DNA from: Ariolimax columbianus
Lineage: Eukaryota > Mollusca > Gastropoda > Stylommatophora > Arionidae
DNA length: 64,000 bases
Assembly: GCA_036924085.1 (NCBI GenBank)
Contig: JAVGWX010000001.1
Span: 5,002,200 to 5,066,199, forward strand
Direction of reading: 5' to 3'
Shown: in pieces, positions 3,189 through 46,917 of the stretch
Numbering within the stretch: position 1 is the first letter of the stretch
Layout of the letters: each line of letters opens with the position of its first letter
Notes under the pieces: generated by a model
Told to the model about the DNA's origin: nothing
What the model saw: the letters and a program-made list of their open reading frames with translations, nothing else
Databases searched by the model: none
Translations under genes and position numbers: made by a program

Positions 3189-3540
3189 CATTTTTAGTGA
3201 GCTGAGAGGACAGATAGATGATGACTGAGAAATTGTAGATAGACATCCTTTATATCAACGCACAGAGAAAGACAGTGAACAGAACAATTGCTAGATTCCG
3301 ACCACGTGATGAGAACCCTGGGTAAAGTTTAGTACTAGAGTAAGATCTGTGCTACTTGCACGAACCTTTAGAAGTAATCTTAGTCAGTTAGAGAAGTGAT
3401 CATAACCAACCATTTGAGAGACATTAGAATTCATTAATAATTGATGAACAGTATAATGTGATCAATGAGCCTAGTGATTTGATTTGATGTGCATATTGTT
3501 TTACTTGTGTAAAAGAATTGTTGGTATTTAATTTAGAGAG

Positions 3541-3735
3541 TTAAGGAAGATAGTGGTAAGGAAGATAGTGGTAAGGAAGATAGAGGTAAGGAAGATAGAG
3601 GTAAGGAAGATAGAGGTAAGGAAGATAGAGGTAAGGAAGATAGAGGTAAGGAAGATAGTGGTAAGGAAGATAGTGGTAAGGAAGATAGAGGTAAGGAAGA
3701 TAGGGGTAAGGAAGATAGTGGTAAGGAAGATAGAA
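3541..3735. repeat. 15-bp minisatellite, 13 copies
   Basis: Near-perfect 'gtaaggaagatagag' units varying at 'agag/agtg/aggg'. The open forward frame (VRKIE repeats) is a by-product of the 15-bp period. Confidence 0.95.
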
Positions 3736-8221: not shown

Positions 8222-8887
8222 AGGCGACGGAGAAACACACAGCAAGCAAGATCATTAGCTTATAGAAGCAATCTTTCAGTCATCCCATTTATCATATTGA
8301 CGCAGTCCAACTGATCACGTCGACATCACCTTGATCAGGTAAATGTAAGTCGTCGGTCGCAGCTAGACGCAGTTGTCCAATGATCCCATGGATCATATTT
8401 CATGCAGGCTATCCTGACCACGATGAAACCACTTTGATCTACCGCCGACAAAGAGGAACTAGTCCACGGACGTCAAACTTGGGTTCAGAAACTACGAGCT
8501 TCACCATCAGCGGCAAGTTGTTAGAGAGTTAATAGTTGGCAGTGTAGCTTGAACAGGCGACGGAGAAACACACAGCAAGCAAGATCATTAGCTTATAGAA
8601 GCAATCTTTCAGTCATCCCATTTATCATATTGACGCAGTCCAACTGATCACGTCGACATCACCTTGATCAGGTAAATGTAAGTCGTCGGTCGCAGCTAGA
8701 CGCAGTTGTCCAATGATCCCATGGATCATATTTCATGCAGGCTATCCTGACCACGATGAAACCACTTTGATCTACCGCCGACAAAGAGGAACTAGTCCAC
8801 GGACGTCAAACTTGGGTTCAGAAACTACGAGCTTCACCATCAGCGGCAAGTTGTTAGAGAGTTAATAGTTGGCAGTGTAGCTTGAAC
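8222..8887 (+). repeat. Perfect 333-bp tandem duplication
   Basis: Positions 8222-8554 and 8555-8887 are identical by eye over 333 bases, followed by three more bases of a third unit. The duplication lies immediately upstream of the endonuclease ORF beginning at 9067, on the same strand, in the position of a retrotransposon 5' untranslated region. It may be a pair of promoter monomers or a recent segmental duplication. Confidence 0.92.
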
Positions 8888-9355
8888 AGGATTGGTCGGA
8901 TTTCACTGTTACCCGTACGCTAATGTGACACCACAACGAAAAGGCGGATACAACCGACCACAAACCGAGTAGAGGAGACTCGTTAACCCCGCAGGCAACT
9001 CTTTTACGAGAAGGAAAACTCTGATGACAAACCACACATAAGACTCATCGCGAGAGCTACTGGAGAATGTGCTCTGGCGTAGATGTCTCCAGTAAATGGC
9101 GCAAAGGAAGGTGGATGCAGAAGGAGAGGAAGGGAAGACAAAAGGAGAGAGAGAGAAAGAAAAGAGCCAGAAAGAGGAAAATTCGAAGAAAGTCAGATAG
9201 ACTTGGGTTAAAAAATGTACGAATAGGCTACTGGAATTGCCGTAGCGCCACCAAACGCGAAGTCATTCTAAAAATATTGGTGAAAGATTTCGACATCTTC
9301 AAGATCCAGGAGACCTGTTTGGAGGAGAATGTTACTATCAAGTGTCCAGGATACA

Positions 9356-21324: not shown

Positions 21325-21376
<52 letters not shown>

Positions 21377-21389
21377 TTCTCTCTCTCTC

Positions 21390-21428
<39 letters not shown>

Positions 21429-21740
21429 ATTCAATCATGAGCAAATGAGACTCTGATAGATGCTAATGTGTATTTTGCAGGTCTCATGCGATCATGAACA
21501 AGTGGAACTTTAATGAATATTTGTTTTTGTGTGCGGATGTTTCATACAAACATGAACAAGTGAGACTTTCAAAGATGCTGACTTGTATGTGTGATGTTTC
21601 AAACAATCATGAACGAGTGAGACTTAAATGAATATTTGTTTTTGTGTTTGATGTCTCTTACAATCATGAACAAGTGAGACTTTAATAATCAATTTTTGTT
21701 TTTGTGTGGGATCTTTCATACAAACATGAACAAGTGAGAA
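21060..21740. repeat. Degenerate array of about 60-bp units with a (CT)n tract
   Basis: Repeated 'caatcatgaacaagtgaga' and 'tttgtttttgtgtgggat' blocks. A (CT)n microsatellite lies at 21318-21422. The array ends at the stop codon of the FGFRL-like gene, so part of it is probably transcribed as 3' untranslated sequence. Confidence 0.8.
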
Positions 21741-22384
21741 TTAAATAGATGTTGGCTTGTAGACACTGCTGTCATCCTTCTTACAGCACAAAGTAAGAGT
21801 AATGGCTAAAAGCCCAATAAGTAGAACAACACCTCCAATTGCCCCAACAATTGTGTAAATAGTCCAAGAGCTAATACTACCTTTGATACTTTCATTTCCT
21901 GCAGACATTGTACTATCTGTATTGTCTACGTCTGCCATCTCATCTGTTTTAACTGGGTTGTATCGACTGTCACCAAAGTCATCTGACTTTTGACTGCCTT
22001 TAAACTGCCAGATTTCAGGAAAAGTAGTTGTGAAAATGACCTCTGTTGTTGTTGCTGGTGAGGTGTTCAACGAGGTAAATGCAGAACTACTAGTTAAATC
22101 TTCTTCAACACGATTTTTTGGCTTATCTTTTCTTTCCTTTTTCAATCCATTTTTCTTGCGTTTGTTCCCAGTATTTTTTGGTTGCTTGGTTGTAGTAAAG
22201 TCTGGGTCTAAATCATCATATTCGGATGGATTCATCCCATCAGAGTCGATGCTCCCAACAATATCATCTTCTTTCACATCAGTTAGAACATTAGGGTCTA
22301 AACTCCCAGAAGGCTCTGACTGTATGACGTTGTTGTTGTTAATAGTGTTTCCATAATTCTTATCCATCTCAGACAAGTGGGGAG
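21741..22384 (-). CDS. FGFRL-like exon 6: linker, transmembrane helix, short tail
   Basis: The acceptor 'atatttacag' at 22385-22394 opens a phase-1 exon coding residues 231-444. It starts SPHLSEMDKNYG, then carries an acidic stretch (VKEDDIVGSIDSD) and a strongly basic stretch (NKRKKNGLKKERKDKPKNR). A Thr/Ser-rich stem TSPATTTEVIFTTTF follows. The membrane helix begins WTIYTIVGAIGG and ends at CC, followed by KKDDSSVYKPTSI and TAA. An NES glycosylation sequon lies in the stem. The linker is far longer than the few residues between Ig3 and membrane in typical FGF receptors. Confidence 0.88.
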
Positions 22385-25300
22385 CTGTAAATATTGAAAA
22401 TGGAAACTGAAATGATGCTATGGTTACAGTAAATACAATTAAATACAATATTTATCATACTACTGCACTGCACTGTTTAACTACATGAAATCTTTGTAGC
22501 TTGGGAGTTAAATTTCTTACTAATTTGTTGAAATAAAATTTAAAAATACAATTTAAAATAAGGTAAGGTAGCAGTCATATTGTGGATAAAAAAAGGTGTA
22601 TAGAAATATACATGGATAGTAATGGCTTAGATACTGTGCTATAATATATACATGGATAGGAATGGATCAGATACTGTGTTGGAATGTAAACATGGATAGG
22701 AATGGATCAGATACTGTGTTGGAATGTAAATATGGATTAGAATGGGTCAGGTATTGTGTTGGAATGTAAATATGGATTAGAATGGGTCAGGTATTGTGTT
22801 GGAATGTAAATATGGATTAGAATGGGTCAGGTATTGTGTTGGAATGTAAATATGGATTAGAATGGGTCAGGTATTGTGTTGGAATGTAAATATGGATTAG
22901 AATGGGTCAGGTATTGTGTTGGAATGTAAATATGGATTAGAATGGGTCAGATATTGTGTTGGAATGTAAATATGGATTAGAATGGGTCAGGTATTGTGTT
23001 GGAATGTAAATATGGATTAGAATGGGTCAGGTATTGTGTTGGAATGTAAATATGGATTAGAATGGGTCAGGTATTGTGTTGGAATGTAAATATGGATTAG
23101 AATGGGTCAGGTATTGTGTTGGAATGTAAATATGGATTAGAATGGGTCAGGTATTGTGTTGGAATGTAAATATGGATTAGAATGGTTGAGACTGTCATGA
23201 GGGAGAACAAACAATACACATATGAATCAACACATTATGGAAGAAGAGACAAGCACATCAAAAAAAGATATGAACAAAAACAAAATATAAGAAGGAAAAT
23301 TAACTGGATAAACCATATTGATGAGCCGGCCTTTGAATTAGTGAAATGGCAGTCCAGGAAAGTCCACAAAGTGAGAGAAACAGGAAGAGAAAAAGGCTGG
23401 ATAGACCAATAGAGACCAAATAAGCTAGATAAAACAATAGAGGACTAATAAGCTAGATAAAACAATACATGCCAAACAATCTGGATAAAACAATAGAGGC
23501 CAAACAATCCGGATAAAACAATCGAGGACTAATAAACTAGATAAACCAATAGAGGACTAATAAACTGGATAAAACAATAGAGGACTAATTAACTGGATAA
23601 AAAATAGAGGCCAAACAATGTGGATAATGTTGGAATGAATTGATATGACAGTGATCAGTTTGAGAGTTTAAGACCAGGTTGGAATGAATTGATGTGACAG
23701 TGATCAGTTTGAGAGTTTAAGACCAGGCTGGAATGAATTGATATGACAGTGATCAGTTTGAAAGTTTAAGACCAGGTTGGAATGAATTGATATGACAGTG
23801 ATCAGTTTGAGAGTTTAAGACCAGGTTGGAATGAATTGATATGACAGTGATCAGTTAAGACCTGGTTGTTTCTTTCATATCCTTTTACTGTAGTTTTGCT
23901 TCTATGATGTATAAATTAGTTTAAGATCATCTACTGTTTAGCACAAACAAGTTTACAGTTCATAGATGTCTTAACTAAGAGACTTACATTGAGCCACAGT
24001 GATAGTATCAATCACTGTCAGCCAAGCACTACTGTAATTGAGACCAAAGACATTCCCAGCCATGCAGCGGTATTCGCCCTCATCTTCTGTCTGAATGTTG
24101 TTCAGTGTGAGAATGTGTGGGTCCTCACTGCCAGGCAGAAACTGACAATAGATACAATTAAAGACAATGTAATCAGCAACAAAACGTTAATTTAAAGCCG
24201 TGAACATGAATCTCATGCTCTGAGATCTCTACTTCAATTGAAATATCTATTCAACACTGAAAGCCACATGAAGACAATTTTATTTAAAAAAGATGTCATA
24301 TTCTTAATAGCAAAAAGAAGTCATCATATCTCAGGTAGTTTACAGCCTAAGTCTCTAAATATATCAAATGTGCTGTTGTAATCTGGTAAAATGTTTTCTT
24401 ACGAGGGTAAGAATGTAGGTCATACACTTCTGTGGTATCATGTAGTGTCTCAGTAGTAGCCATAAAATGTGTGTATAAGAATGAATTCCACTCTATTGTT
24501 TGTTCCACTATGGTGTGCAAGGTGGCGATATAATCTGTTCATTATCTCTCATGATGAAATCCCACTTGATCTTCTCAGAACTTCTTGTCTACTCCCTCTT
24601 TTAGACTGTCTAAGATCATTCTATTGAATATTTTTTTACTGATAACAATGTGATTCCTCTAAAGCTGGTGGTCTGACAAGTCTCATTTCTTGATCAGTTT
24701 AATCTTCTTTCCTCCTCCAATTACATTTTCTATTCTTCCCAAATCCTTTTGAATAATTGATATAGTTCATCTGTGACCTTCTCTGTATATCTGTATATGA
24801 TATATCAAAACATACAAATTACCCTAACAGCAAAGATGGGACTTTGGATGATCCAGGAGTCGTGCTCTCTGGCTGTCATCAAGCAAAATCCTTGTTTAAA
24901 AAATAGCTAAGAGGAAAGTTCATACAATGATGAAAATGAAGAAGTTGTAAAGCATCAAAATAGAGATGAGAAAGTTGAAAATAAATATACTTGGATTGAG
25001 TGAGACATGATGGAGAGAAAAGGGTGAATATCAGAGTAAAAAACATCATGTGGTATACTGAGGAAGCATCAGGGGACAAGGAGGAGAAGCCCTATTATTA
25101 GATAAACAGTCAACAACTGCATAGAGAGAGATGAATATACACAATCAGCAATAAATGACATTATGAATGACTTCACATCAGCAAATACTAAAGATAGTAA
25201 AGGCCATAGATAATGTCATGATTATTGGAGATTAGAATGTAATTGTTGGCATGGGCTCTAAAGCGAGACCTAGATGGCAAAAATGGCCTGGGTACTAGGA

Positions 25301-28300
25301 ATGAAAGAGGGTAAAGGCTAGTAGACTTTTGCCATCATGAAAACTACAAAATAGCAAACATCTGGCTGTTGAAGACTACAACATAGCAAACATCTGGCTG
25401 TCGAAGATAGATGTGTCAGACCAGAAAGTGCAAATATCGCAGTCAAGCTGTAAACTAGCGACACAACGCATTCCGTTTTCTGGTCTACATTCTGCTACTT
25501 GTAAAGCCCTGTTCAGGGCTTGGTAGCGGCAGATTCAGAACATTCAGGGCTTAGTAGCAGGAGATTGAGAACGTTCAGGGCTTGGTAGCGGGAGATTGAG
25601 AACGAACAGCAGAAGAAGAAGAAGAAGCAAACTCCTAGACTTAAGTCTCAAATAAACGAAAATAAACATGGAGTGCTGGAAATCTAGGGAGATATCAAAT
25701 TGATTTTACTTCATGGAGAAAACAAGATATAGAAACACCATTTTAAAAAACTGATTGTTTACCCTGATGCAGAAGCTGATACTGAACATAATTTGCCTAT
25801 TATGAAATGTCAGCTATGATTTTAAAAATCTGGGAAATCATAAAAGCTAGCAAAGTAAAATTTAATTGCTTTGAGTGAGTTAGAGAGTTTCTAAGTATAA
25901 GAGTATCAAGAATGAATTAGGTCAAGAATGTAAGATGGTACGAGAAAAATGTTGGAGAGACCGATGCAACAAAATTATAGACCTTGTTAAAAGATATTGG
26001 CAATTTCAACAAATACATAAGAAAGTAAAACAATCCTTCAGTAAAAGTAAGTCCATACAATCATGAACGATTAATGATAAGTATAGGAAACCAATAACAG
26101 ACCCAGAGAACAGAAAGAGATAAGGAGAGAATATGTTAAGGAACTGTATGAAGATGGGGGTCTGTATCAAGATAACACACCACTAATTGACATGCTTTTG
26201 ATAGAAGAGAGATTACCTGTAACCAGAGAAGAATTTAATAAAGCATTTTCCTCAATCCTGAACAACAAAGAGCCATGGAAAGGTGAGTCACCTATCTAGA
26301 TACTCAAAATATCTGGAGAGATTTCACAAAATTTACTTTTTAAATATGTTAATGACATTTACAACAATGGAATATGGCCAAACAATCACATAACTTCAAT
26401 TACAATTCCTTTGCCAAAAAATGAAATGCAACAGAATGCAACCAATTCTAATTGATAAGCTTAATAACACATGCATCTAAAATTCTTTTGAAGATAATTA
26501 GGAAGAGAATTTATGGCAAGATAGAGGAGGTGCTGAAAGGTAACCATTTTGAATTTCACAAAGCCAGAAGTACGCAGCATGCCATTGGATCATTGCGGCT
26601 TCTAGCAGAAAGAATTATTGATCAAGAGCGACCACTATATATCTGATTTCTTGACTATGAGAAAACTTTTGATTGACTCCATTGGATCCAAAACTTTATC
26701 TAGAAGCAAAGGATAGAGTATAGTATTAGGTTCATGCAAACTTTTGGCTGTGCTATAGATTTGTTTCAAGCAACAGGTTTGACAAGGTTGTTTCTGATTC
26801 TTCCACTATGGCTGTGTCACCTGCAAATTTGATGGCATTAACTTTCATACCATTGACTTTGACACCCCTATTGAAACTCTGAACAACATATTCTGTCAAA
26901 GTCAATGGTATGAAAGTTAATGCCATCAAATTTGCAGGTGACCAAGCCATAGTGGAAGAATCAGAAACAACATTGTAAATGTTGCTTGAACAAATTAATA
27001 GCACAGCCAAAAAGTTTGGCATGAAAATAAACACATTGAAGATAAAGATTTTGGTAATAGCCAAACATCAATATAATCATCAACAGAGAAATAATTGATC
27101 AAGTACAACATTTTACATATTTAAGGCAAACCAAAACAGAAGATGCCCGCAATGAGACATATATTAAAACAAAGATTGCAACGGCCAAAAAGTGTGTCAG
27201 AGAAAAATTGAAATTGCTAACCTAAAAGAATATGACAACAGAACTTAGGAAAAGAATAATTCTCATTCATATATGGACAATTGTACTATATGGGGCTAAA
27301 GCATGGACTTTAGCAAAAAAGGATGAAACAAGCTTGGAAGCGTTTGAAATATAGTACTAATGTAGAATGAAAAGGGTGAGTTGGACAGAGTGAAGATAAA
27401 TGACAAGGCCTTCACTGAAGTAGGCACTCAAAGACAAATATTTCAAAATAATACAAAACTGACAACTGAGTTGTCTAGGCTACACTATGAGACATGATTG
27501 CCTTCTACAGAAGATACTAGAGGGCAAGATTCAGGGAAAAAGATGGAGGGTTGACCAAGACTCACATTTGCATCTAAGTCCTGCAGAGACATTTAATTAC
27601 AAACCTATGTACAGTGCAGCAAAGGATAGGATCAAATGAAGAGACACACTCAGACAACCTTACAGACAGACTCAAGACTGATCAACCAGAGGATAGGGTC
27701 AAATGAAGAGACATACTTAGACAACCTTACAGACAGACTCAAGACTGATCAACCAGAGGATAGGGTCAAATGAAGAGACATACTCAGACAACCTTACAGA
27801 CAGACTCAAGACTGATCAACCAGAGGATAGGGTCAAATGAAGAGACATACTCAGACAACCTTACAGACAGACTCAAGACTGATCAACCAGAGGATAGAGT
27901 CAAATGAAGAGACATACTCAGACAACCTTACAGACAGACTCAAGACTGATCAACCATAAGATGATGATGATGACAATAGGTAAAGATCCTGATTTCAGGT
28001 CTGTGTGACATATTGGGTATATGGTGTTAGGCTCATATTTTTCTTGACCAACATCGCAACTGCCGCCTTTACTTTCCCAGATTATGCTGGTACCAATTTT
28101 TTAGGCTGGGTGAACCCTGTGGGCCATTATACAATCTGGAAAAGTCACACACCAACTGGCGACTGAGACGCAACTAATCAGATAGGAAGTCAGTGGACTA
28201 GCCACTGTGCCACCTCAGGTCTCTCTATTTATATGTAGTGTGTGTCTCACTCACCTCAGGTCTCTCTCTATATATGTAGTGTGTGTGTGTGTGTCTCACT

Positions 28301-28955
28301 CACCTCAGGTCTCTCTGTATATATGTAGTGTGTGTGTGTGTGTATCTCACTTACGTCAGGTCTCTCTCTCTATATATGTAGTGTGTGTGTGTGTGTCTCA
28401 CTCACCTCATGTCTCTCTCTCTATATATGTAGTGTGTGTGTGTGTGTGTCTACCTCATCTCAGGTCTCTCTCTCTATATATGTAGTGTGTGTGTGTGTCA
28501 CACTCACCTCAGGTCTCTATCTCTATATATGTAGTGTGTGTGTGTGTGTGTGTCTCACTCACCTCAGGTCTCTATCTCTATATATGTAGTGTGTGTGTGT
28601 GTGTGTGTGTGTGTGTCTCACTCACCTCAGGTCTCTCTCTCTCTCTATGTAGTGTGTGTGTGTGTGTGTGTGTGTCTCACTCACCTCAGGTCTCTCTCTC
28701 TCTCTATGTAGTGTGTGTGTGTGTGTGTGTGTCTCACTCACCTCAGGTCTCTCTCTCTCTCTATGTAGTGTGTGTGTGTGTGTGTGTGTGTGTCCCACTC
28801 ACCTCAGGTTTCTCTCTCTATATATATGTAGTGTGTGTGTGTTTGTCTCACTCACCTCAGGTCTCTCTCTATATATGTATTGTGTGTGTGTTTCTCACTC
28901 ACCTCAGGTCTCTCTCTCTATATATATAATGTTTGTTTGTCTCACTCACCTCAGG

Positions 28956-28987
<32 letters not shown>

Positions 28988-31900
28988 ATGTGTGTGTCTC
29001 ACTCACCTCAGGTCTCTCTCTCTATATATGTAGTGTGTGTGTGTTTGTCTCACTCACCTCAGGTCTCTCTCTCTATATATGTAATGTGTGTGTGTCTCAC
29101 TCACCTCAGGTCTCTCTCTCTATATATGTAGTGTGTGTGTGTTTGTCTCACTCACCTCAGGTCTCTCTCTCTATATATGTAGTGTGTGTGTGTTTGTCTC
29201 ACTCACCTCAGGTCTCTCTCTCTATATATGTAATGTGTGTGTGTCTCACTCACCTCAGGTCTCTCTCTCTATATATGTAGTGTGTGTGTGTTTGTCTCAC
29301 TCACCTCAGGTCTCTCTCTCTATATATGTAGTGTGTGTGTGTTTGTCTCACTCACCTCAGGTCTCTCTCTCTCTATATATATATAATGTGTGTGTGTGTT
29401 TATGTCACTCACCTCAGGTCTTTGTCTCTATATGTGTGTGTGTTTATCTCACTCACCTCAGGTCTCTCTCTCTATATGTGTGTGTGTTTGTCTCACTCAC
29501 CTCAGGTCTCTCTCTCTATATGTGTGTGTGTTTGTATCACTCACCTCAGGTCTCTCTCTCTATATGTGTGTGTGTTTATCTCACTCACCTCAGGTCTCTC
29601 TCTCTATATATGTGTGTGTTTATCTCACTCACCTCAGGTCTCTCTCTCTATATATGTGTGTGTGTTTATCTCACTCACCTCAGGTCTCTCTCTCTATATA
29701 TGTGTGTGTTTGTCTCACTCACCTCAGGTCTCTCTCTCTATATGTGTATGTGTTTGTTTCACTCACCTCAGGTCTCTCTCTTTATATGTGTGTGTTTGTC
29801 TCACTCACCTCAGGTCTCTCTCTCTATATGTGTGTGTGTTTGTCTCCCTCACCTCAGGTCTCTCTCTCTATATGTGTGTGTGTTTGTCTCACTCACCTCA
29901 GGTCTCTCTCTCTGTGTGTTTATGTCACTCACCTCAGGTCTCTCTCTCTATGTGTTTATGTCACTCACCTCAGGTCTCTCTCTCTATGTGTTTATGTCAC
30001 TCACCTCAGGTTGTAGAACATTGTCATCCATGTTCTTCTTGCTGCTTGTTTTCATCCATCTAATTGTGGCACGTTGGTCATTTAGAACCTGGCATCTGAA
30101 AGTGACAGTGGAGCCCCGTACCTGGGTCATATTGCGGGGACCATCAATAATCAGTGGTGATATTTTCTCTAGAATATAAAAAGTCAGTTTTCATGCCAGT
30201 TATAATAAGGCTCTGAGTGACAAACACATTATATTTATTGATTATCTTTATTTATTGATTATCTTTATTTATTGATTATCCTAACAAATGGACCGGCTTT
30301 ATTGCCAATCTTGTCAATCTAGTGTCTACCTAGCTGTAAATGTGTACCTGACTTACAAAGGCCCTGTGATGAGAAAGGGAACAGGTCACTTCACCTCAGA
30401 CAAAACTAAGACCTTGTACAGAAAGGGAATGGCTCACTTCACTTTAGACAAAACTGAGACCTGGTACAGAAAGGGAATGGGTCACTTCACATCAGACAAA
30501 ACTAAGACCTTGTACAGAAAGGGAATGGCTCACTTCACCTTAGACAAAACTGAGATCTGGTACAGAAAGGGAAGAGGTCACTTCACCTCAGACAAAACTG
30601 AGACCTGCTACAAAAAAGGGAATGGGTCACTTCACCTTAGACAAAACTGAGACCTGGTACAGAAAGGGAATGGAGCCACAACATCAGACAAAACTGAGAC
30701 CTGGTACAGAAAGGGAATGGAGCCACAACATCAGACAAAACTGAGACCTGGTACAGAAAGGGAATGGAGCCACAACATCAGACAAAACTGAGACTTGGTA
30801 CAACAACATTTCTAACAGTAAATCCCCAACTTCAGTGCCTTTTATATGTCATACTTTTATGTTTTGTTGTGAAGCTTCTGTTTTGTACACTATTATATGG
30901 GTCAGTATGGAACCAGGACACAAGTGTTGAAAGGTAAATAGATCATATTCTGTGTATGCTGACAAGATAATTTTATATCCTTCTTGTTATTTAACATGAA
31001 TTTAGTTAGTTAGTTTTCTTTCCACATGTACATTAAGTGACGTTGGGAGCTTAAGTCATCTGTCTTGCACCAGGTGTCTTGCCCCAGTCAATGTGAGCCA
31101 GTGTCGCTGCACAATCACTCTAATGTCATCTATCCACCTGCCTCGCGGCTGCCCCATTACCTGTAGCCCCACCTGCATGCATTGCAAGCCATCGGTGGAA
31201 GTTGATGAAAATGCACTCTCATGAGATGACCATACCGACGCTTCTTGTGCGAGGAAATGTATTCTGCACAAGACGTAGTGCTGACCATACTACGAATGTC
31301 ATTTCACATTCTGTCTTTCCTGGTAACACCGATGACCTTCCTCAAACACTTCATTTTACATGTCAAAATTATGCACTCATGCACCTTGGACAGAGGTCAT
31401 GTTTTGCACTGGTAGCACATGGTCGGCATAAATATACTGTTTATCAGCTGTTGCTTTATTGCTAAACTAATACTTGGGTGTCTAAGCAGTGGTAACAGCT
31501 GATAAGTTACCGCAGATGCTTTCTGACACCTAGTCTCGATTCAGCTTAGTAGGAAAATGGAAGTCGTTAATTTAACACCTTCTTCTACATAATCTTGATG
31601 TTAGGCATGGCTTTGGGTGGAGCCCACATGAGAAATAAAGAGAAAGAAGATGAAAGGAAACCTTGAGAACAATGGTAGGTTGGGAAGTCAAGACAGTTGT
31701 AATCTCATGTGTGCTGCGAAACATAAACAGCGTGTAGTAGTAATTGGTGGTGACGTCTTATACTTAGCTTTTCAACATTTTTATTCTGGTTTAGAAGACT
31801 GCAGAGTCTGTAAACAACCAGTTTCTTGTCTCTTTAATTGTTCCTGCCTCAACTACTTCCTGCAGCAATGCATTCCAAGCATTCACCACTCTCTGAATAA

Positions 31901-34900: not shown

Positions 34901-37900
34901 TGCCCCAGTGCTTGATTCTGGGACCAAATTTGTTCTTGATAGATATAAACGATTTGGACATTGATATCAGATATATGATTACAAAATTTACTGATGACAC
35001 AAAACTATGCAGTAGTGTCTCATCTAAAGCAGAAGTGGATGTATTGAGATCGGATTTAGATAAAATTTGATAATCGTCTGTGAGCTGGCAAATGGAGTTT
35101 AAGATAGATAATGTACAGTCATTCACATGGGTAGATCCAATATGGAACTAAATTACAAAATAAGCGAGAACAACATTAGAATGATAGGAAAGGAAAGGGA
35201 CCTAGGGTTATTATAGATCATACAGGTAAAGTGAGTGAGCAAGTTAAGGTAGCAGTGAAAAAGGCAAATACAATTTTAGGTATTATAAAAATAAATATTA
35301 AAAATAGGAGCAAGGAAGTGATAGTCAAACTGAATAAAGCATTAGTTAGACTTAGATTGGAGTACTCTGTACAGGTGTGAAGTCCTTATCAGAGAGGGGA
35401 TATAGACGTGCTGGAAAGAATACAAAAAAGAGCGACAAAGCTGATAGTGGGTTTCTAGAATTACAGTTATGAGGAAAGACTCCGAAAAACCGACCACAGT
35501 GTCTAGAAATGAGAAGAAGTTGAGGGGACTCAAAACAGGTTTATAAGATAACTAAGTTCAGTTCAGTTCAGTTCATCTCGTAACCCATTAGGTCGTTGGG
35601 GCACACATGAAGAGACTCCCAAAATCCCACGCCATCCCTCTCTATCTGTCGCCGCCTGACATATTTCACCGGGACGAAGGCCTGACCACTCAGTGATGTT
35701 GTCCACCCATCTCTTCCTTGGACGTCCTCGCCCTATCTGTTCCGGTACGGAACCAAAGCGTATCGAGTTGGTAAATCCGTTGGACCTCGCGACGTGCCCG
35801 CACCAGGCCATCTTTCGTCTTTTGATAGCTGTGAACAGATCTTCAAAAAGATCAATAGCGTCTTCAACTCTCTGACGGATTTCTACGTTCGTGACACGAT
35901 CTTTATATGTAACATTTAGGAGTTTTCTATAGCACCTCATTTCCATTGCATGTATCCTGCCCTGGATATCTGCTGTAATGGTCCAGGTCTCGCAGGCATA
36001 CAGAAATATTGATAGCACCAAAGAGCGCAGTAGTCTAACTTTTATGCCGAGGGCGAGCCGCTTGTCTTGCCAAATAGGTTTCAGCCGAGTCAGCGCCGCT
36101 GTTGTTTGTGCTATTCTTGCAATTACCTCTGGCTTCGATCCCTCTTCGCTGATCAATGATCCCAGATATTTGAAACGTTTTACCACCTCAAGTTCCTGCC
36201 CATTTGCCTCTATTACAGATTTAAACCCTGCTAAATTATTGGTCATGAGCTTTGTTTTATCTGCATTTATTTCCATACCAAAACTCAGGGCCGTTCTATC
36301 CAATCTACCAATCAACTCCTGGAGTTCCCTCTCTGTGCCTGCCAATACATCAATATCATCAGCAAATCGGAAGTTTGTGATAGGCCTGTCACCTATTTTA
36401 ACCGTGCCAACATGTCCTTTTAAGGTCGTCTCCATTATTCTCTCCAAGAATATATTGAAGAGTGTGGGGGAGAGTATACATCCCTGTCTTACACCCACTG
36501 TCGTACGGAACCAATCGCCTAGCGTTCCCTCTACCGAGATTGGGCTTGTCGCCTGCTCATAAAGGTTTGCAATTACCCTCACAATATCCCTGTTGAACTT
36601 ATAATGCCTCATTGTTGACCATAGTGCCGCATGCCACACTCTGTCAAACGCCTTTCTAAAGTCAATGAAGGCCTGGTAGAGTTGTTGTTGATACTCTGAG
36701 TACTTCTCATTCATTAGCTGAAGGTTAAATATCTGCTCGATGGTACTCCTTCCCGCTCGAAAGCCCGCTTGTTCTTCGGCAATGATATTCTCTGCCTGTG
36801 GTTTCAGTCTGTTTAGTATTATTCTCAAGAGAACTTTGCTTGGATGACTTATCAGACTGATTGTTCGATAGTTCTGACACATATTTAGGTTTTCTGATTT
36901 AGGTAGTGGTATAATGACTGATTTTGTCCAGCTGGTGGGCCACTCTCCTGTCTGCCAAATTCTATTGCAGATGTATGTCAGGGTATCAATTGTTGCCTCA
37001 CCTCCCACTTGTAGGAGCTCTGCTGGGATATTATCCACACCTACAGCCTTCCCTCTCTTCAGCATTTTCACGGCTTCATATACTTCTTCCCTTGTTATCG
37101 TTTGATTTTCCTCAATCAGACTCACTTCAGGAGACATTGCATTTCTTGGGTCACCTCGACCTTCATGCTTATATAGTTCCGAACAGTACTCTGTCCATCG
37201 CTCACGAATGTCTTGAGCTTCTGTGAGATATTTCCCACTCTTGTCCTGAATCGTTGTATTTCGAATTTGTACAGGCCTTACTAAGTCCTTGACTAATTTA
37301 TATGCCCCCTTGGCATCATTTCTTCCTAGATTTTGTTCGATATCTGCGCACTGAGTCGTTATCCCTTCCACCTTGGCCTGTTTCATCTTGGCCTTTATGT
37401 TTCCATTTATCTCTCTATATTGCTTAATCCCATCTAGTGTTTTCTTCGCTTTCTTCATTTGTCGTCTCTTGTCACATAAATCCAGTATTTCACTCGTGAT
37501 CCATGCTTTCTTCTTAATCCTGCACCTACCTAGAACCTCAGATGCCGTGGAGATTAATGTCGAATTCAAGGCTTCAGTCATCCTCTCAACATCTGCCTCC
37601 TCGTTTAGAACCAAGAGAGGTGCGAATCTTCCCACCATTACCGATCCAAAGGTCTCCACTATATCCGGGTACTTCAACTTCTCCAAGTCAAATCTTAGTC
37701 TAGATATTTCTCTTTTCAGAACTTGCTTTAGTCTGAGATGTATGGTCATCAACACTAAGTCGTGGTCGCTCCCTATATCGGCCCCTGTGAAACTTCTTGT
37801 CCGGGCGCTATTGACACTAGATCTGAATCTCCTTTGGACCAAAATATAGTCAATTTGACTATGAAGCGTACTATTTGGGCTGTGCCACGTCCACCGTCTA

Positions 37901-40900
37901 GACATTTTATGTGGTCCCAGCGTATTCGCTACTATTAGCTTATTGTAATACGCAAATTCCAAGAGTCTCAGTCCTCTATCGTTCGTGGTCACATTTCCAT
38001 ATGTTCTACATGTGCCTTTCCAGTCACGTACCATGTCTTCGCCAATTTTGGCATTTTAATCTCTCTGTACCACCAGTATATCCTCCTTCGGTACCTGGTT
38101 CACCAAAGCCTGTCCTTCCTCGTAGAAGCTCTCAACCTCGCTGTCCTCGTAATCTGAGGTAGGTGCATAGCATTGTATCACCGTGACATTGAAGGGCTTT
38201 GCATTTAGTCGTATACTGAGCAATCGGCTTGATACTGGTCGGCAACCCAATACACAACATGCCGTGTCTTTGTGCACCAGCATTCCGACATCATGAAGGT
38301 GTTTGTCAGATCTTCCACTGTAATAAAACTTGTGACCTTCTTCTGTGATTTGTTCTCCGAAATTTTTCCAACGTGCTTCGCATATGCCAAGCACATTCCA
38401 GTGGTATCTATCCATCTCATGGGTCAGTTTTTTAATTTTCCCACTTGCACTTAGAGTTGTAAAATAGATAACTAAAGGAATGAATAAATTGGACTATAAC
38501 AAGTTTTTCAAAACACAACCACCCACAAGAACAAGAGGGCATAGCTACAAATTAACTAAAGGAAGGTCCAGACTAGATTTGAAGAAATATTTTTTTAGTC
38601 AGAGAGTGGTTAATGCTTGGAATGCATTGCCACATGAAGTAGATGAAGCAGGAACAATGAATGCATTTAAGAATAGATTGTATGCGCATAGCTTTTAGAG
38701 CATTGCGATTATGTATGAAACTGCTGTATACAGACACTTGCAGTCTTCTAAACCAGTGTAAAGATGTTAAGTTAGTATGAAGAAAGCATGAAATAATGTG
38801 TTTTAATGTGTATGAGGGATATCTCAGTTCATAGCGAGCAATTCGCCATTTTCTGTGGTAACAGCATTCCTTAGTTCGAATTGCGTTCGGAGACTAACAA
38901 AATTCAGGTCGTGCTTTTAATCGCTGACCGCTTTTCCAGTTAACCTACCTGTAAATGGGTACCTAATGCATGAGTTATTGCAAGTAAAAGCAGCAAGGAA
39001 GGATACTGGCCACCCCACCTTTTATAGGCTGCAGCTTAGTACAATGGAATTTTCAAAAACTCCATTTCCTACCTGGGGTTAATTCTGCTGAATTTCCACT
39101 TTACTTTACTTTAATGTGTATGATGATTGCATAATATAATGAGTTTCATTGTGTACATGGATTACATGAAATCCACATGTTTTAACTGTCTCCTCTCCAT
39201 AGGAAAGCCACATGTTTTAGCTGTCTCCTCTCAATAAAAAGTCACATGTTTTAGCTGTCTCCTCTCAATAGGAAAGCCACATGTTTTAGCTGTCTCCTCT
39301 CAATAAAAAGTCACATGTTTTAGCTGTCTCCTCTCAATAAAAAGTCACATGTTTTAGCTGTCTCCTCTCAATAAAAAGTCACATGTTTTAGCTGTCTCCT
39401 CTCAATAAAAAGTCACATGTTTTAGCTGTCTCCTCTCGATAGGAAAGCCACATGTTTTAGCTGTCTCCTCTCAATAAAAAGTCACATGTTTTAGCTGTCT
39501 CCTCTCAATAAAAAGTCACATGTTTTAGCTGTCTCCTCTCAATAAAAAGTCACATGTTTTAGCTGTCTCCTCTCGATAGGAAAGCCACATGTTTTAGCTG
39601 TCTCCTCTCAATAAAAAGTCACATGTTTTAGCTGTCTCCTCTCGATAGGAAAGCCACATGTTTTAACTGTCTCCTCTCAATAAAAAGTCACATGTTTTAG
39701 CTGTCTCCTCTCAATAAAAAGTCACATGTTTTAGCTGTCTCCTCTCAATAAAAAGTCACATGTTTTAGCTGTCTCCTCTCAATAAAAAGTCACATGTTTT
39801 AACTGTCTCCTCTCAATAAAAAGCCACATGTTTTAGCTGTCTCCTCTCAATAAAAAGTCACATGTTTTAGCTGTCTCCTCTCAATATAAAGCCACACGTT
39901 TCAACTGTCTCCTCTCAATAGGAAATCCACATGTTTTAGCTGTCTTATCTAAATATGGAACTAATCATTTGTAACTATCTCCTCTCAAAATAAAAGCCAC
40001 TTGTTTTAGCTGTCTCCTTGCAATTGGCTCATGTATTTTGTCCGGGATCAAGATGCGAGGCAGCACATGAGCTGCAGTGGTCAGCGACTCATAGCTGACT
40101 GCTAGCGTCAGGGTCAGCAACCCAAAAGCTGCCAAGACCGTTCTACACCTCCACAGATAACAGGCTGCAGCAGGGCAGACTGTCTAAGGAAAAGGGATCG
40201 AAGAGGGAATGCTAACCCGGTACTCAAAAAATGGTTGGTGAAGTAGGATGTGTTGGACCAAAAGGTGCAAATATCGCAGTGAAGCTGTAAACTACAACAC
40301 AACACATTCTGTTCTCTGGACTACATTCTGCTACTTGAGCCCCTTAAGGGCTTGGTAGCGGGAGATTGAGAACGAACGAAGTCAAGCCAATCCAAGCCAA
40401 GTCCAAGCCAAGCCAAGCCATCTAGTTTGTCCTATGAAAAGGAAATTAGACTGTTCAACACTAATGTAAAATTGGTCCAATTAAATGGCTGATAAACTAG
40501 ACATGTAACCCAAAGTACCACATCCAGAATTGAGAACTAGAACATCTCTCAATTGCACATTAATATCCAAAAGTAAAAATAAAAACAAACGAGTGGGAGA
40601 CAACATGACAGGACATACAGCTGGAGATGGCAAAGAAGAAACATCAGATGGATGATACACACTCTCAGGAAACAGTATAACCAAACATGAGCTGGATTGA
40701 AGCATAAAGAGGATAGAGTAGACATTTGGGAAGACTAGGAACACAATTAAGTGTTGACCAGAATAAGCAAATATTTGTTTTGTTAAAAGACTGTTTTTCC
40801 ATACAAGCTTTTATTTATACTTGTACTTCTTTTCTTTTGTTTTGTTTTGGAGACTAAGAAGTGTATTTGTTTTTAAAACTTGTCATGTTTCTTTGGTCAA

Positions 40901-43900
40901 TTTGTGTTTTTGGTAAGTCATTTGTGTTTTTGGTAGGTCATTTGTGTTTTTGGTAGGTCATTTGTGTTTTTGGTAGGTCATTTGTGTTTTTGGTAGGTCA
41001 TTTGTGTTTTTGGTAGGTCATTTGTGTTTTTGGTAGGTCATTTGTGTTTTTGGTAGGTCATTTGTGTTTTTGGTAAGTCATTTGTGTTTTTGGTAGGTCA
41101 TTTGTGTTTTTGGTAGGTCATTTGAAGAAAATTTGATAATTGAACAGGTCGAACTAATAGAGACAATGCAGAAAATGTAATCTCTCAAGGTTATGGGGTA
41201 GTTGGTTAAAATAGAAGTACAAGTCTGCGCAAAAGCAAACGGTTATATCAAGTTAAACAAAAGCTTGTAAAAAAAGAGGTTGTTAAGACGGCCCAAAACA
41301 GCAATCATTGGCATGAATATATATTAATCATCTGTTCTGAATGACAAACAAATGGTAAAAGTAGTCCTTTTCCAAATGGATTAACTGTTCAAAATTGGAG
41401 GATTAAATATTGACAACGAAGACCAAGCTCTAATAAACCAATTGACTAGCAACGCACATACACTATGAGTTGGCAGCGAAATAGTTCATTTTAAGCATAT
41501 AAAAGAAGGAATCAAGCCTAGATGCATTCTATCACCTCATCGCCTCTCGCTGTGCTATGACGACATGTAGTGATCCACGAGGAAAGGAGTCTGGATATAG
41601 TAGGTGATGGACAAGTAAATAACTTTCGATAATTTCAATTTGTCACAATTTTTAAAAGCAGACTTAGCAAACAAACAAAAACAAAACAACAACAACACAC
41701 AAGAGAGAAGCAGAAAATGGTATCATCAACAATAGTTTGAACATGAATAGATTGTGTTTGACAAGCAAGACAACATGTTTTTGTTTGCACGGGGCAGGTC
41801 TAGTACCCTCTGACCTGGAACACTGAGATGGAAAGTCCAATCTATCTGACCATGCTTGTTGCTGACCACACATGTGTAATTGCCAGTCATATTCGTTGTC
41901 AGGGCTTTTAGGACCAGGTTAAACTTCTTGATCTGAAATGTAGGACAAGGAATTAAACTTCTCGCTCTCGGCTCCAATGAAATGACAGACCAAGTATGAC
42001 ATGTATGTGGCTAGGGGAATGGGAGAGGGGTACACATATAAATGTAAATGTAAATGGTACACAACCTCACACCAATGGTACACACCCTCACACCAATGGT
42101 ACACACACCCTCACATCTATGGTACACACCCTCACACCAATGGTACACACCTTCGCACAAATGGTACACACACTCACACCAGTGGTACACACTCTCACAT
42201 CAATGGTACACACTCTCACACCAATGGTATACACCCTCACACCAATGGTACACACCCTCACACCAATGGTACATACCCTCCCACCAATGGTACATACCCT
42301 AACACCAATGGTACATATCCTCAGACCATTTGTTTTGTTGTTTAGGTTGTGTTTGCCTTCTGTCTCTATTCCCCAAGGTGGTGTGCGGTCCACTATGTTT
42401 TTATTTTACGCCAGTCGGCCCAATGCATTCTACTTCGGCATGCAGTTTATGTAAAAATCTGCTTCCTCCTGCATTTTCTAAGGGTTTGCTTTCCCAAGGT
42501 AACGGCTGGTGCTGTGATTGGGGAGCGAACCCATCACCTTCGGGTTGTGTGCTGTGTCACTTAACCACTAGGCCACGACGTCCCCTGTACACATTTTCAA
42601 ACCAGTGGTTCACACTCTCAAATCGTCCACCTTCAAACCGCCCACCCCTCAAACCGCCCACTCTCAAACCAATGGTTCACACTCTCAAATCGTCCACCTT
42701 CAAACCGCCCACCCCTCAAACCGCCCACCCTCAAACCAATGGTTCACACTCACAAATCGTCCACCTTCAAACCGCCCACCCCTCAAACCGCCCACCCTCA
42801 AACCAATGGTTCACACTCTCAAATCGTCCACCTTCAAACCGCCCACCCCTCAAACCGCCCACCCTCAAACCAATGGTTCACACTCTCAAATCGTCCACCT
42901 TCAAACCGCCCACCCCTCAAACCGCCCACCCCTCAAACCGCCCACCCTCAAACCAATGGTTCACACTCTCAAATCGTCCACCTTCAAACCGCCCACCCCT
43001 CAAACCACCCACCCTCAAACCAATGGTTCACACTCTCAAATCGTCCACCTTCAAACCGCCCACCCCTCAAACCGCCCACCCTCAAACCAATGGTTCACAC
43101 TCTCAAATCGTCCACCTTCAAACCGCCCACCCCTCAAACCGCCCACCCTCAAACCAGTGGTTCACACTCTCAAATCGTCCACCTTCAAACCACCCACCCC
43201 TCAAACCGCCCACCCTCAAACCAGTGGTTCACACTCTCAAATCGTCCACCTTCAAACCGCCCACCCCTCAAACCACCCACCCTCAAACCAGTGGTTCACA
43301 CTCTCAAATCGTCCACCTTCAAACCGCCCACCCCTCAAACCGCCCACCCCTCAAACCACCCACCCTCAAACCAGTGGTTCACACTCTCAAATCGTCCACC
43401 TCCAAACTGCCCACCCCTCAAACCACCCACCCTCAAACCAATGGTTCACACTCTCAAATCGTCCACCTTCAAACCGCCCACCCCTCAAACCGCCCACCCC
43501 TCAAACCACCCACCCTCAAACCAGTGGTTCACACTCTCAAATCGTCCACCTCCAAACTGCCCACCCCTCAAACCATCCACCCTCAAACCAATGGTTCACA
43601 CTCTCAAATCGTCCACCTTCAAACCGCCCACCCCTCAAACCACCCACCCTCAAACCAATGGTATCCTTAAACCAGTTCCAAGTCATATGAACTTCTCACT
43701 CCGCTTAGATATTTGAACACATTGTTGTTATGTTGTCCAGATGCCACCCCCTCCCCTCGTACTCTATAGTCTTCGAGAATTTTCTATAATTTGTTACTGT
43801 TGACTCAATGAACATCATTTTCCTTCTAAAACAAATGACAATTTTCTGTTGATCACTTATTTCAATGGTTTGTTCACAAATTGATCGCAAAAAAACAAAA

Positions 43901-44198: not shown

Positions 44199-44254
<56 letters not shown>

Positions 44255-46917
44255 ACGGTGCAACAAATGTACCTGCATATTGTTATTGTTCTTGATTTCC
44301 ACTCCGTCCTTGAGCCACTTGATACTGGGTTTGGGACTAGCTTGGGCCTTGCAGTCCAGATTGATTGCTTTCCCTTCTATGATCAGCTCTGTCTTTTTGT
44401 TCATGGCAGGCATTGAGGATGACTTCCACTGTGGACCTGCCTCTAGTATCATAATAAAAACAGGCGTGTTATCTCTGACACTCACGTGCCACCCAAATAT
44501 GGCATCAACCGCTAATAACATTGTCACGTGCATGCCATGTCACAAGCAGCACATATGATTAACGGGGACAGGACTGGCGATCCCAACTCCCAGAGACTGT
44601 AACCTAGAAGAAATTAAAAGTGGCGTCTACACCACACGGTAGAAGGAAGAGGAGGGGCATTCAGCTTTTCAAGTTTCGTTAATATCTCTGAAAAGTGTTG
44701 CCATACTTTTGTCTATAACCCTCATTTGCAGACAAACAAATGACGTCTTAAATATACAGGTGAGATGGCCCATGATGCAGCACAGCGAATGAGCTGACGA
44801 TAGCCAGTGACCCATTGCTGGTTGCCTGCATCAAGCAGAGCAGCCAACCATAGTCGACCAAAGCCCTGGTCCATCTCCAAGTTTGCGGTCATAGAAACAG
44901 GCTGCACTACTCTAGTCTGGTTCAGAGAATAGAGGTCACAGAGGGGAAGTAAACCTGGTCCCTAAGACCAGATTTGTCGGGCCGAAAAAGTGCAGATATT
45001 GTAGTCTCTCTGTACACTATGATACACCGTCCATTTCTGAAGGTACACCGAAGAAGAAGAAGAAGAAGAGGATGAAGAAGAAGAAAAAGAAGAAGAAGAA
45101 TACATGACATCCACGTGAGACATACAACAGACCATCAGCTATCTGATTAATCCCACTAGCCTACAAATGAAAGCGTTGTACACGTTCAAAGATGACGAGG
45201 GAATGCGCTACGGTAAAGCTGTCTTTATTAAGCATAACCAGCTGATCCAGTCAGTCTTACGAGAGCATCACAGAGAACGATTGACTATTACCCAGAAGAA
45301 TGGGTACATGTCTATTCTGATGAGTTTGCTTTTTAAGGCCACCCTTAAAACGAGATATGGAGTCTACAAAATTTATTCAGACAGAACAAAATAAGCTGTT
45401 TAATGCATGTGGGGAGATATATGTAATCTATGAGGCAGAAATAACAGCACTGGAAGTAGCCCTGTACCACTTAAGAACTGTATTTGATGCTTTCCCATCA
45501 AACGCGCAAAGCATGGTAATCTTTACAGACTCATTCTCTGCCTTTTAAGCTCTGAAAGATGGTGGCCATTGTAAGCCCGAACTTATCCCTACCTATCTCA
45601 ACTTCTCACAACCTATGAATGTAGAATAGCTGGTAACTCAAATACACATGGCAATGACAAGACAATCAGACGGGTTAAGAGGGATCAAGTAAACAAACAA
45701 CAATAACCACAAACAACTCTACAGACAAGTCAACCAACTACTGAATACTACGAACAAAAAAGGCTTGGCTGAATAGACAGGCAGTGAGGAATACTGGGAG
45801 AGAAATCTACAAGCATATGGCCATCCCAAACACAACAATCTACCTTCTGAAAAGGAAAGATCAACACACAAGTTTCCGACTTCGTACTCAACACATATAA
45901 TTTAACAGCTACTTGAACATAATCCAACCAGAACATACTGCAGAGTGCCGGCTGTGCACATATCCATATGAAACTGTTGAGCACCATCTTTTTGAATGCA
46001 CAGCGCTTGCCGGTGTTAGGAAAGAGATTCTTTATCAGAGACCTGACAAATGGAACATCGTTGTACGGAACTAAACAACAGCTCACAAATACTTGCAGAT
46101 ACCACTATATGGCATTGAGCCAAAGAGCAGACGCCCACGCGTCGCTGGATCAATAACCAACCAACCAACCGAACCAACCAACCAACAATTCAACCAACCA
46201 ACCAACCATCTCCACGTCACTTAGTCACTCCTCTGCTACCACTAGAATGAGGTAGGGTGTGGTGTTGAGGAATATTTGTAAATACTAGAAATCAGGTGTG
46301 CATACAAACAGGTGATTGTGTTTCTGCTGTGTTTCCTATTTATCATCAACCGAAAGTTGTTTGAGGTCAGGTCGCTGAACATTGTCAGGTCCTGTGGGTC
46401 GTGAGACCGTGTTTAGCTCAGGCCTAATTCAGGGCCTGTTCGCCAGATATTCCATGTGCATTCCACTTCCTAAACTATCTTCGATTAGGTATTCTATCAA
46501 AGGACTTTGCAAAATCTAGATAAATAACATCCACTGGCTCTCCTTTATCTATCATTTTGGTAACCTCCTCCATGAAACATATCTAGTTATCCACTTTTTT
46601 CGATTGGAGTAACGTCCTGCACGGAACAAATACGCCTTTTAGATATACATACTATTTAATAGAATTGTTTTAAAACTCTCTCACGCTTTTTTAACAGTTG
46701 TTCTACTGTCAGTATATTTCCACATTATGTAGCTCTCTGCTTCTGTCATCTTCTTCACATATGTTGTTCTTCTCTTGCAAATGTTGGAATAATTATACGA
46801 TTTTACAGTTTTAATAACTCATTGGTGACGGCTGGTTGATTATCTTCCAGGTTGAGTTACAACCGCGTGCGTGCAATATCTCCTCTTTATTTCTCCTCTC
46901 GTTCCTCCTCCTTCTCG

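Follow-up and report, generated by a model that had tools for sequence, protein, structure and literature searches.

A minisatellite in the genome of the gastropod Ariolimax columbianus straddles an exon-intron border, and it repeats in tandem the exon's own 5' splice site (donor) together with the last bases of the exon. It lies in a window of 64,000 nucleotides (the whole stretch analysed here; contig JAVGWX010000001.1, positions 5,002,200 to 5,066,199, numbered below from its first letter), within a minus-strand gene for a putative FGFR-like receptor. We refer to the five mapped exons of this gene as exons B to F; the border in question is the one between exon D and intron D-E. Tandem repeats over exon-intron borders are known as 'mirages' in amphioxus, where they were described in the genes for Adh3, globins and troponin C (PMC3087553, PMC3902484). 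We consider it likely that the present array is a minisatellite of this type, which would have grown outward from the edge of exon D, would be near-neutral and would leave most splicing to its first donor; it probably changes splicing little. The array and its first donor are located as follows:

28211..30011, minus strand: minisatellite across the exon-intron border, made up of 37 units (36-63 bp each) and, as the 38th, a truncated core
30003..30004, minus strand: authentic 5' splice site GT, the first donor of the array, which joins QPE to FLP without VSDINT, as in all ten relatives aligned

The border, as placed by the gene model, separates an exon end reading CAA CCT GAG at 30005 from an intron that starts with GTGAGTGAC at 30004 (minus strand), and the exon's own donor forms the first unit of the array. 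Tandem Repeats Finder (TRF) called the array as a tandem repeat with minisatellite-sized units, as in a mirage. When it is cut at each donor core, which sets the unit borders used here, every unit consists of the core followed by CA, TA and GA runs, and the truncated 38th core lies at 28220. The CA runs reach up to 28 nt per unit and become longer toward the distal end of the array. The seven exon bases ACCTGAG recur exactly in 35 of the 37 later cores, and the unit thus spans the authentic border. The first two units do not differ and the third departs from them at one base; mean identity declines from 0.90 between neighbouring units to 0.69-0.78 at lags of 30-36.

Within the window, the junction sequence of exon D is private to the array. 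The 15-mer ACCTGAGGTGAGTGA occurs there in 31 exact copies, or 36 when up to two mismatches are allowed, all of them inside 28247-30011, while 100 shuffles of the window gave a mean of 0.22 and at most two. Likewise, among ten exon ends tested against the window, only that of exon D recurs (35 matches at up to two mismatches, its own included).

The copied junctions are also donors by score. With a donor scoring matrix and a threshold of at least 6 bits for a strong donor, 35 of the 38 cores, the authentic one included, carry a strong donor on the minus strand, and the plus strand of the array carries none; 200 first-order Markov sequences for the array stretch contained 0.375 on average and never more than two. 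Cores 33, 35 and 38 are the ones without a strong donor, and all three are found at the distal end. The donor of exon D itself reaches 7.5 bits, compared with 1.5, 3.0 and 4.9 bits for the other mapped donors of the gene. An earlier note on this DNA had proposed that the authentic splice site is tandemly repeated with seven exon bases, and the 37 units, the truncated core and the 35 strong donors bear this out.

The host gene was modelled as five minus-strand exons with a frame of 414 residues that ends in a stop codon; the start of the gene lies upstream, outside the mapped part:

44273..44436, minus strand: exon B, first mapped exon, first half of the first immunoglobulin (Ig) domain
41815..41932, minus strand: exon C, which completes the first Ig domain
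30005..30168, minus strand: exon D, 164 nt, with the first half of the second Ig domain, ending in phase 0 at QPE
23988..24141, minus strand: exon E, 154 nt, which completes the second Ig domain
21741..22384, minus strand: exon F, with a linker, a hydrophobic segment (putatively transmembrane), a short tail and the stop

Exon D is bordered by an acceptor ending in TTCTAG and by the donor GTGAGTGACA, its frame is continuous with the other mapped exons, and it aligns with gastropod relatives. Since the exons upstream of 44436 are unmapped, its designation as 'exon 4' in the earlier note is not established; it is the third of the five mapped exons. A protein search with the model returned 23 matches at E <=0.001, namely ten gastropod entries (two from Candidula and one each from Bradybaena, Aplysia, Lymnaea, Batillaria, Biomphalaria, Bulinus, Plakobranchus and Pomacea), three near ones and ten weaker ones. 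The gastropod entries are 39-55% identical to the model in the alignment, and eight of the ten cover 99-100% of the query (Batillaria 51%, Pomacea 47%); one bears the name FGFR 1-A. FGFR1 matches residues 2-197 in one stretch with E-values of 8.8e-37 and below, and titin and Roundabout-2 chains score higher. Pfam recognizes two Ig stretches in the model, and the gastropod relatives that reach the start methionine likewise show two. Near the C-terminus, at model residue 379, the hydrophobicity peaks at a Kyte-Doolittle value of 2.68 over 19 residues, a stretch that we take as a putative transmembrane segment. We treat the gene as one for a putative FGFR-like receptor of a gastropod type that has a pair of Ig domains and a single hydrophobic segment. 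FGFRL1, which was considered as an identity, has three Ig domains, and its intracellular tail is long and rich in histidine at the end; the model, with exons upstream of 44436 unmapped, has two Ig stretches and a short tail ending in YKPTSI, and we did not adopt this name. Upstream of the first mapped exon, at 45431-45544 on the minus strand, a short frame resembles half an Ig domain (MLCAFDGKASNTVLKWYRA) and may be a relic or an unmapped exon.

The junction of exons D and E falls within the second Ig domain, between two cysteines that are invariant in the gastropod alignment (C120 and C175). Aligned with FGFR domain D3, it comes close to where the IIIa half stops, near the site at which IIIa is spliced to IIIb or IIIc in FGFRs.

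The position of this junction determines what use of a later array donor would yield. As the earlier note had stated, the frame translation extends exon D in phase 0 and reaches an in-frame TAG after VSDINT, and it does so for any downstream donor of the array; the reading is always QPE-VSDINT-stop. Counted from this stop, the new junction follows after 15, 51 and 87 nt when the second, third or fourth donor is used, and the E-F junction after 169, 205 and 241 nt; for later donors the distances are longer still. Under the usual exon-junction rule, applied here to a gastropod gene, a stop codon far upstream of the last junction exposes an mRNA to nonsense-mediated decay. At least 169 nt separate the stop from the last mapped junction after it, and decay of such mRNAs would therefore be expected. 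Any protein made from them would retain C120 in its second Ig domain and lose C175. The product had been described as Ig2 with half of Ig3; given only two Ig stretches in the model, it would instead comprise Ig1 and half of Ig2, and 'D2 and half of D3' is a correct name only in FGFR numbering. Of the overall interpretation in the earlier note, then, the repeated authentic splice site with its shared stop stands, while a secreted form made through decoy donors is disfavoured by the predicted decay and by the loss of one cysteine of the pair.

Skipping of exon E would have a different outcome. Joining exon D to exon F shifts the frame, adds 28 new residues and reaches a stop 87 nt into exon F; this makes exon E skipping the better candidate for a route to a soluble product than decoy donors. 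Skipping of exon D likewise breaks the frame.

How might the array have arisen? Tandem duplication probably carried a segment across the 3' edge of exon D, with seven exon and about 29 intron bases, into the intron, where slippage or unequal exchange would then have expanded and homogenised the copies to about 37 units. We infer the outward direction of copying from the relatives' proteins: the residue aligned with the last one of exon D is acidic in nine of ten (E in five, D in four, A in one), the preceding proline is present in three of ten, and VSDINT appears in none of the ten gastropod relatives in the alignment. The exon bases thus fit inherited coding sequence, and the repeats therefore look copied outward from the exon. 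In the resulting gene, the authentic first donor would serve nearly all splicing, rare use of a later one would produce the VSDINT-stop mRNA that is then decayed, and the array would be close to neutral. The surroundings make such an array unsurprising. Tandem repeats occupy 25.9% of the window (53 merged blocks) and 28.7% of the gene span, and when 18 blocks were placed at random over the gene span, a block edge fell over at least one of the eight splice junctions in 17.5% of 20000 trials; in a genome so rich in repeats, one border-spanning array is therefore nothing unusual.

Several points weigh against this reading. The 35 donors are near-equal in local strength, with 34 identical 9-mers, and a preference for the first is therefore not explained by the donor itself. 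In the human IFI6 gene, moreover, downstream units of a comparable array do serve as donors (PMC4526556). In the rest of the window, strong donors number five on the minus (gene) strand and 17 on the plus strand, a scarcity on the gene strand that could reflect the usual selection against decoys. Finally, the direction of copying rests on a protein alignment, which shows residues and not exon borders. In favour of near-neutrality, a comparison between the units of the array gave no sign of excess conservation of donor bases over the adjoining copied exon bases: changes affect five of 333 cells at donor positions -3 to +6 and one of 148 cells in the adjacent ACCT. This is a weak test of selection, because the units are homogenised.

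In some of the alternatives the array would act on splicing. The earlier note had a share of transcripts use array donors and yield a secreted protein, in proportions tuned by array length. We regard this as very unlikely. It is true that 35 strong donors lie in phase with one common stop, and that two downstream repeat units of IFI6 are used as donors (PMC4526556); against this stand the distance of at least 169 nt between the stop and the E-F junction, a product that is a half domain with an unpaired cysteine, and donor bases that show no extra conservation. Retention of one unit of the human ABCA7 array, furthermore, occurs in 2 +/- 1% of transcripts and is independent of length (PMC5954066). 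Should the present array have any effect, skipping of exon E in step with array length would be the better candidate, even though we hold it to be unlikely as well. In this case, the U1 sites and CA runs of the array would lower recognition of exon E, and the product would be a soluble protein of Ig1 and half of Ig2. The stop would then lie in exon F, the last mapped exon, and the mRNA should escape decay; CA runs, which are known to bind hnRNP L and to affect splicing, reach 28 nt per unit and lengthen distally. In ABCA7, where the repeat likewise opens with the donor of its exon, longer arrays bring more skipping of the exon that follows (PMC5954066). Yet amphioxus mirages are reported without disturbance of splicing (PMC3087553, PMC3902484), and the soluble product would still contain a broken second Ig domain. 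We would call it unlikely that a length-variable array of U1 sites and CA runs sets exon E inclusion and, through it, the proportions of membrane-bound and soluble receptor in different individuals; if true, an invertebrate would have come independently to an effect like that of ABCA7, close to the place of the FGFR IIIb/IIIc choice.

Two further explanations fare less well. U1 is known to protect introns from premature polyadenylation, and the 5.9-kb intron D-E opens with more than 30 donor-like U1 sites that might serve this purpose. This is scarcely credible, since intron D-E contains one AATAAA and four ATTAAA, compared with 14 and seven in the array-free intron C-D of 11.6 kb. It also seems highly improbable that the array is a dispersed satellite that adjoins exon D by chance. 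The window is rich in arrays, but all 36 core matches in it fall inside this one, the 30 best blastn matches in its other parts fall on CA runs at 44203-44256, and the exon bases of the unit fit the relatives' protein. We therefore return to a near-neutral mirage-type minisatellite as the probable explanation.

Arrays that bear donors are uncommon in the window. Of 48 merged blocks with a period of at least 10, only two others carry at least three donors of at least 4.5 bits on one strand, which is the plus strand in each case: 3537-3734, and 8222-8890, a repeat of two copies. The former is a 15-bp array (AGAGGTAAGGAAGAT) with six GAG/GTAAGG donor-like sites, for which no adjoining exon was identified. 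Just upstream of exon D, a second minisatellite (30372-30802; about 48 bp in nine copies) has units that resemble an acceptor, with a pyrimidine run and CAG, followed by a weak donor (CTGAG/GTGAAG); [CT]AG/GTCT occurs in five copies and GAG/GTGAAG in two. A repeat block in the 3' untranslated region (21325-21746) reaches across the stop codon of exon F, its edge 5 nt from 21741, and is another array that starts at a coding edge. Intron C-D holds an unbroken frame of about 830 residues (35566-38055) that resembles the reverse transcriptase of non-LTR (long terminal repeat) retrotransposons; among the best 120 of 737 proteins, its relatives carry PF00078 and the closest is 61% identical. No Rfam family reached its gathering threshold in 20000-46000. 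A tRNA-derived element, suspected by eye at the distal end of the array, is not claimed, because ARAGORN found zero tRNA genes in the window and the flank 28000-28215 has no second copy there.

The array is of a border-spanning kind already described in amphioxus and in human ABCA7 and IFI6, here in a mollusc. It shares with the amphioxus mirages a tandemly duplicated exon-intron border, short units (10-72 bp in Adh3) that contain splice signals, and neighbouring units that are homogenised, the array edges less so. Data on amphioxus Adh3 and reverse transcription PCR on the globins are said to suggest that regular splicing continues, and length instability is reported for these mirages (PMC3087553, PMC3902484). 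The present array differs in its host, a mollusc rather than a lancelet, and in its size, with about 37 units compared with three to six in the globin gene BflGb6. It was read here in one haplotype.

The array in intron 18 of human ABCA7, a variable number tandem repeat, starts with the GT of the exon 18 donor, and skipping of exon 19 rises with its length, while retention of a single unit shows no length effect in cell lines (PMC5954066). As in our case, the exon itself supplies the first GT, the donors stand in tandem (25-bp units, 23.7 copies in the reference), and use of the next unit's donor leads to a premature stop (PMC5954066). The two differ in gene and unit sequence; the portion of the ABCA7 report that describes the array takes it from the GT on and makes no mention of exon bases. 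The splicing and length effects stated for ABCA7 are measured ones.

The minisatellite of human IFI6 (6-16) consists of 26 units of 12 bp. Its repeat units, too, form a series of donors beside an exon, but downstream units are used there and yield further isoforms (PMC4526556). Soluble splice forms are also reported for FGFRs, for instance FGFR3IIIS (PMC2394287), and vertebrate FGFR splicing acts on Ig III (PMC3238399); the D-E junction lies near the IIIa end of D3. Unlike the vertebrate genes, the Ariolimax model has no kinase, and a single second-half exon was found for it.

Border-spanning minisatellites, described in lancelets and in two human genes, are hereby extended to a mollusc, in an array where about 35 near-identical donors follow one another and for which we claim no primacy among molluscs. 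The array is a natural setting in which to ask how the spliceosome singles out the authentic donor when many copies equal it in local strength, and whether longer or shorter arrays differ in skipping of the next exon.

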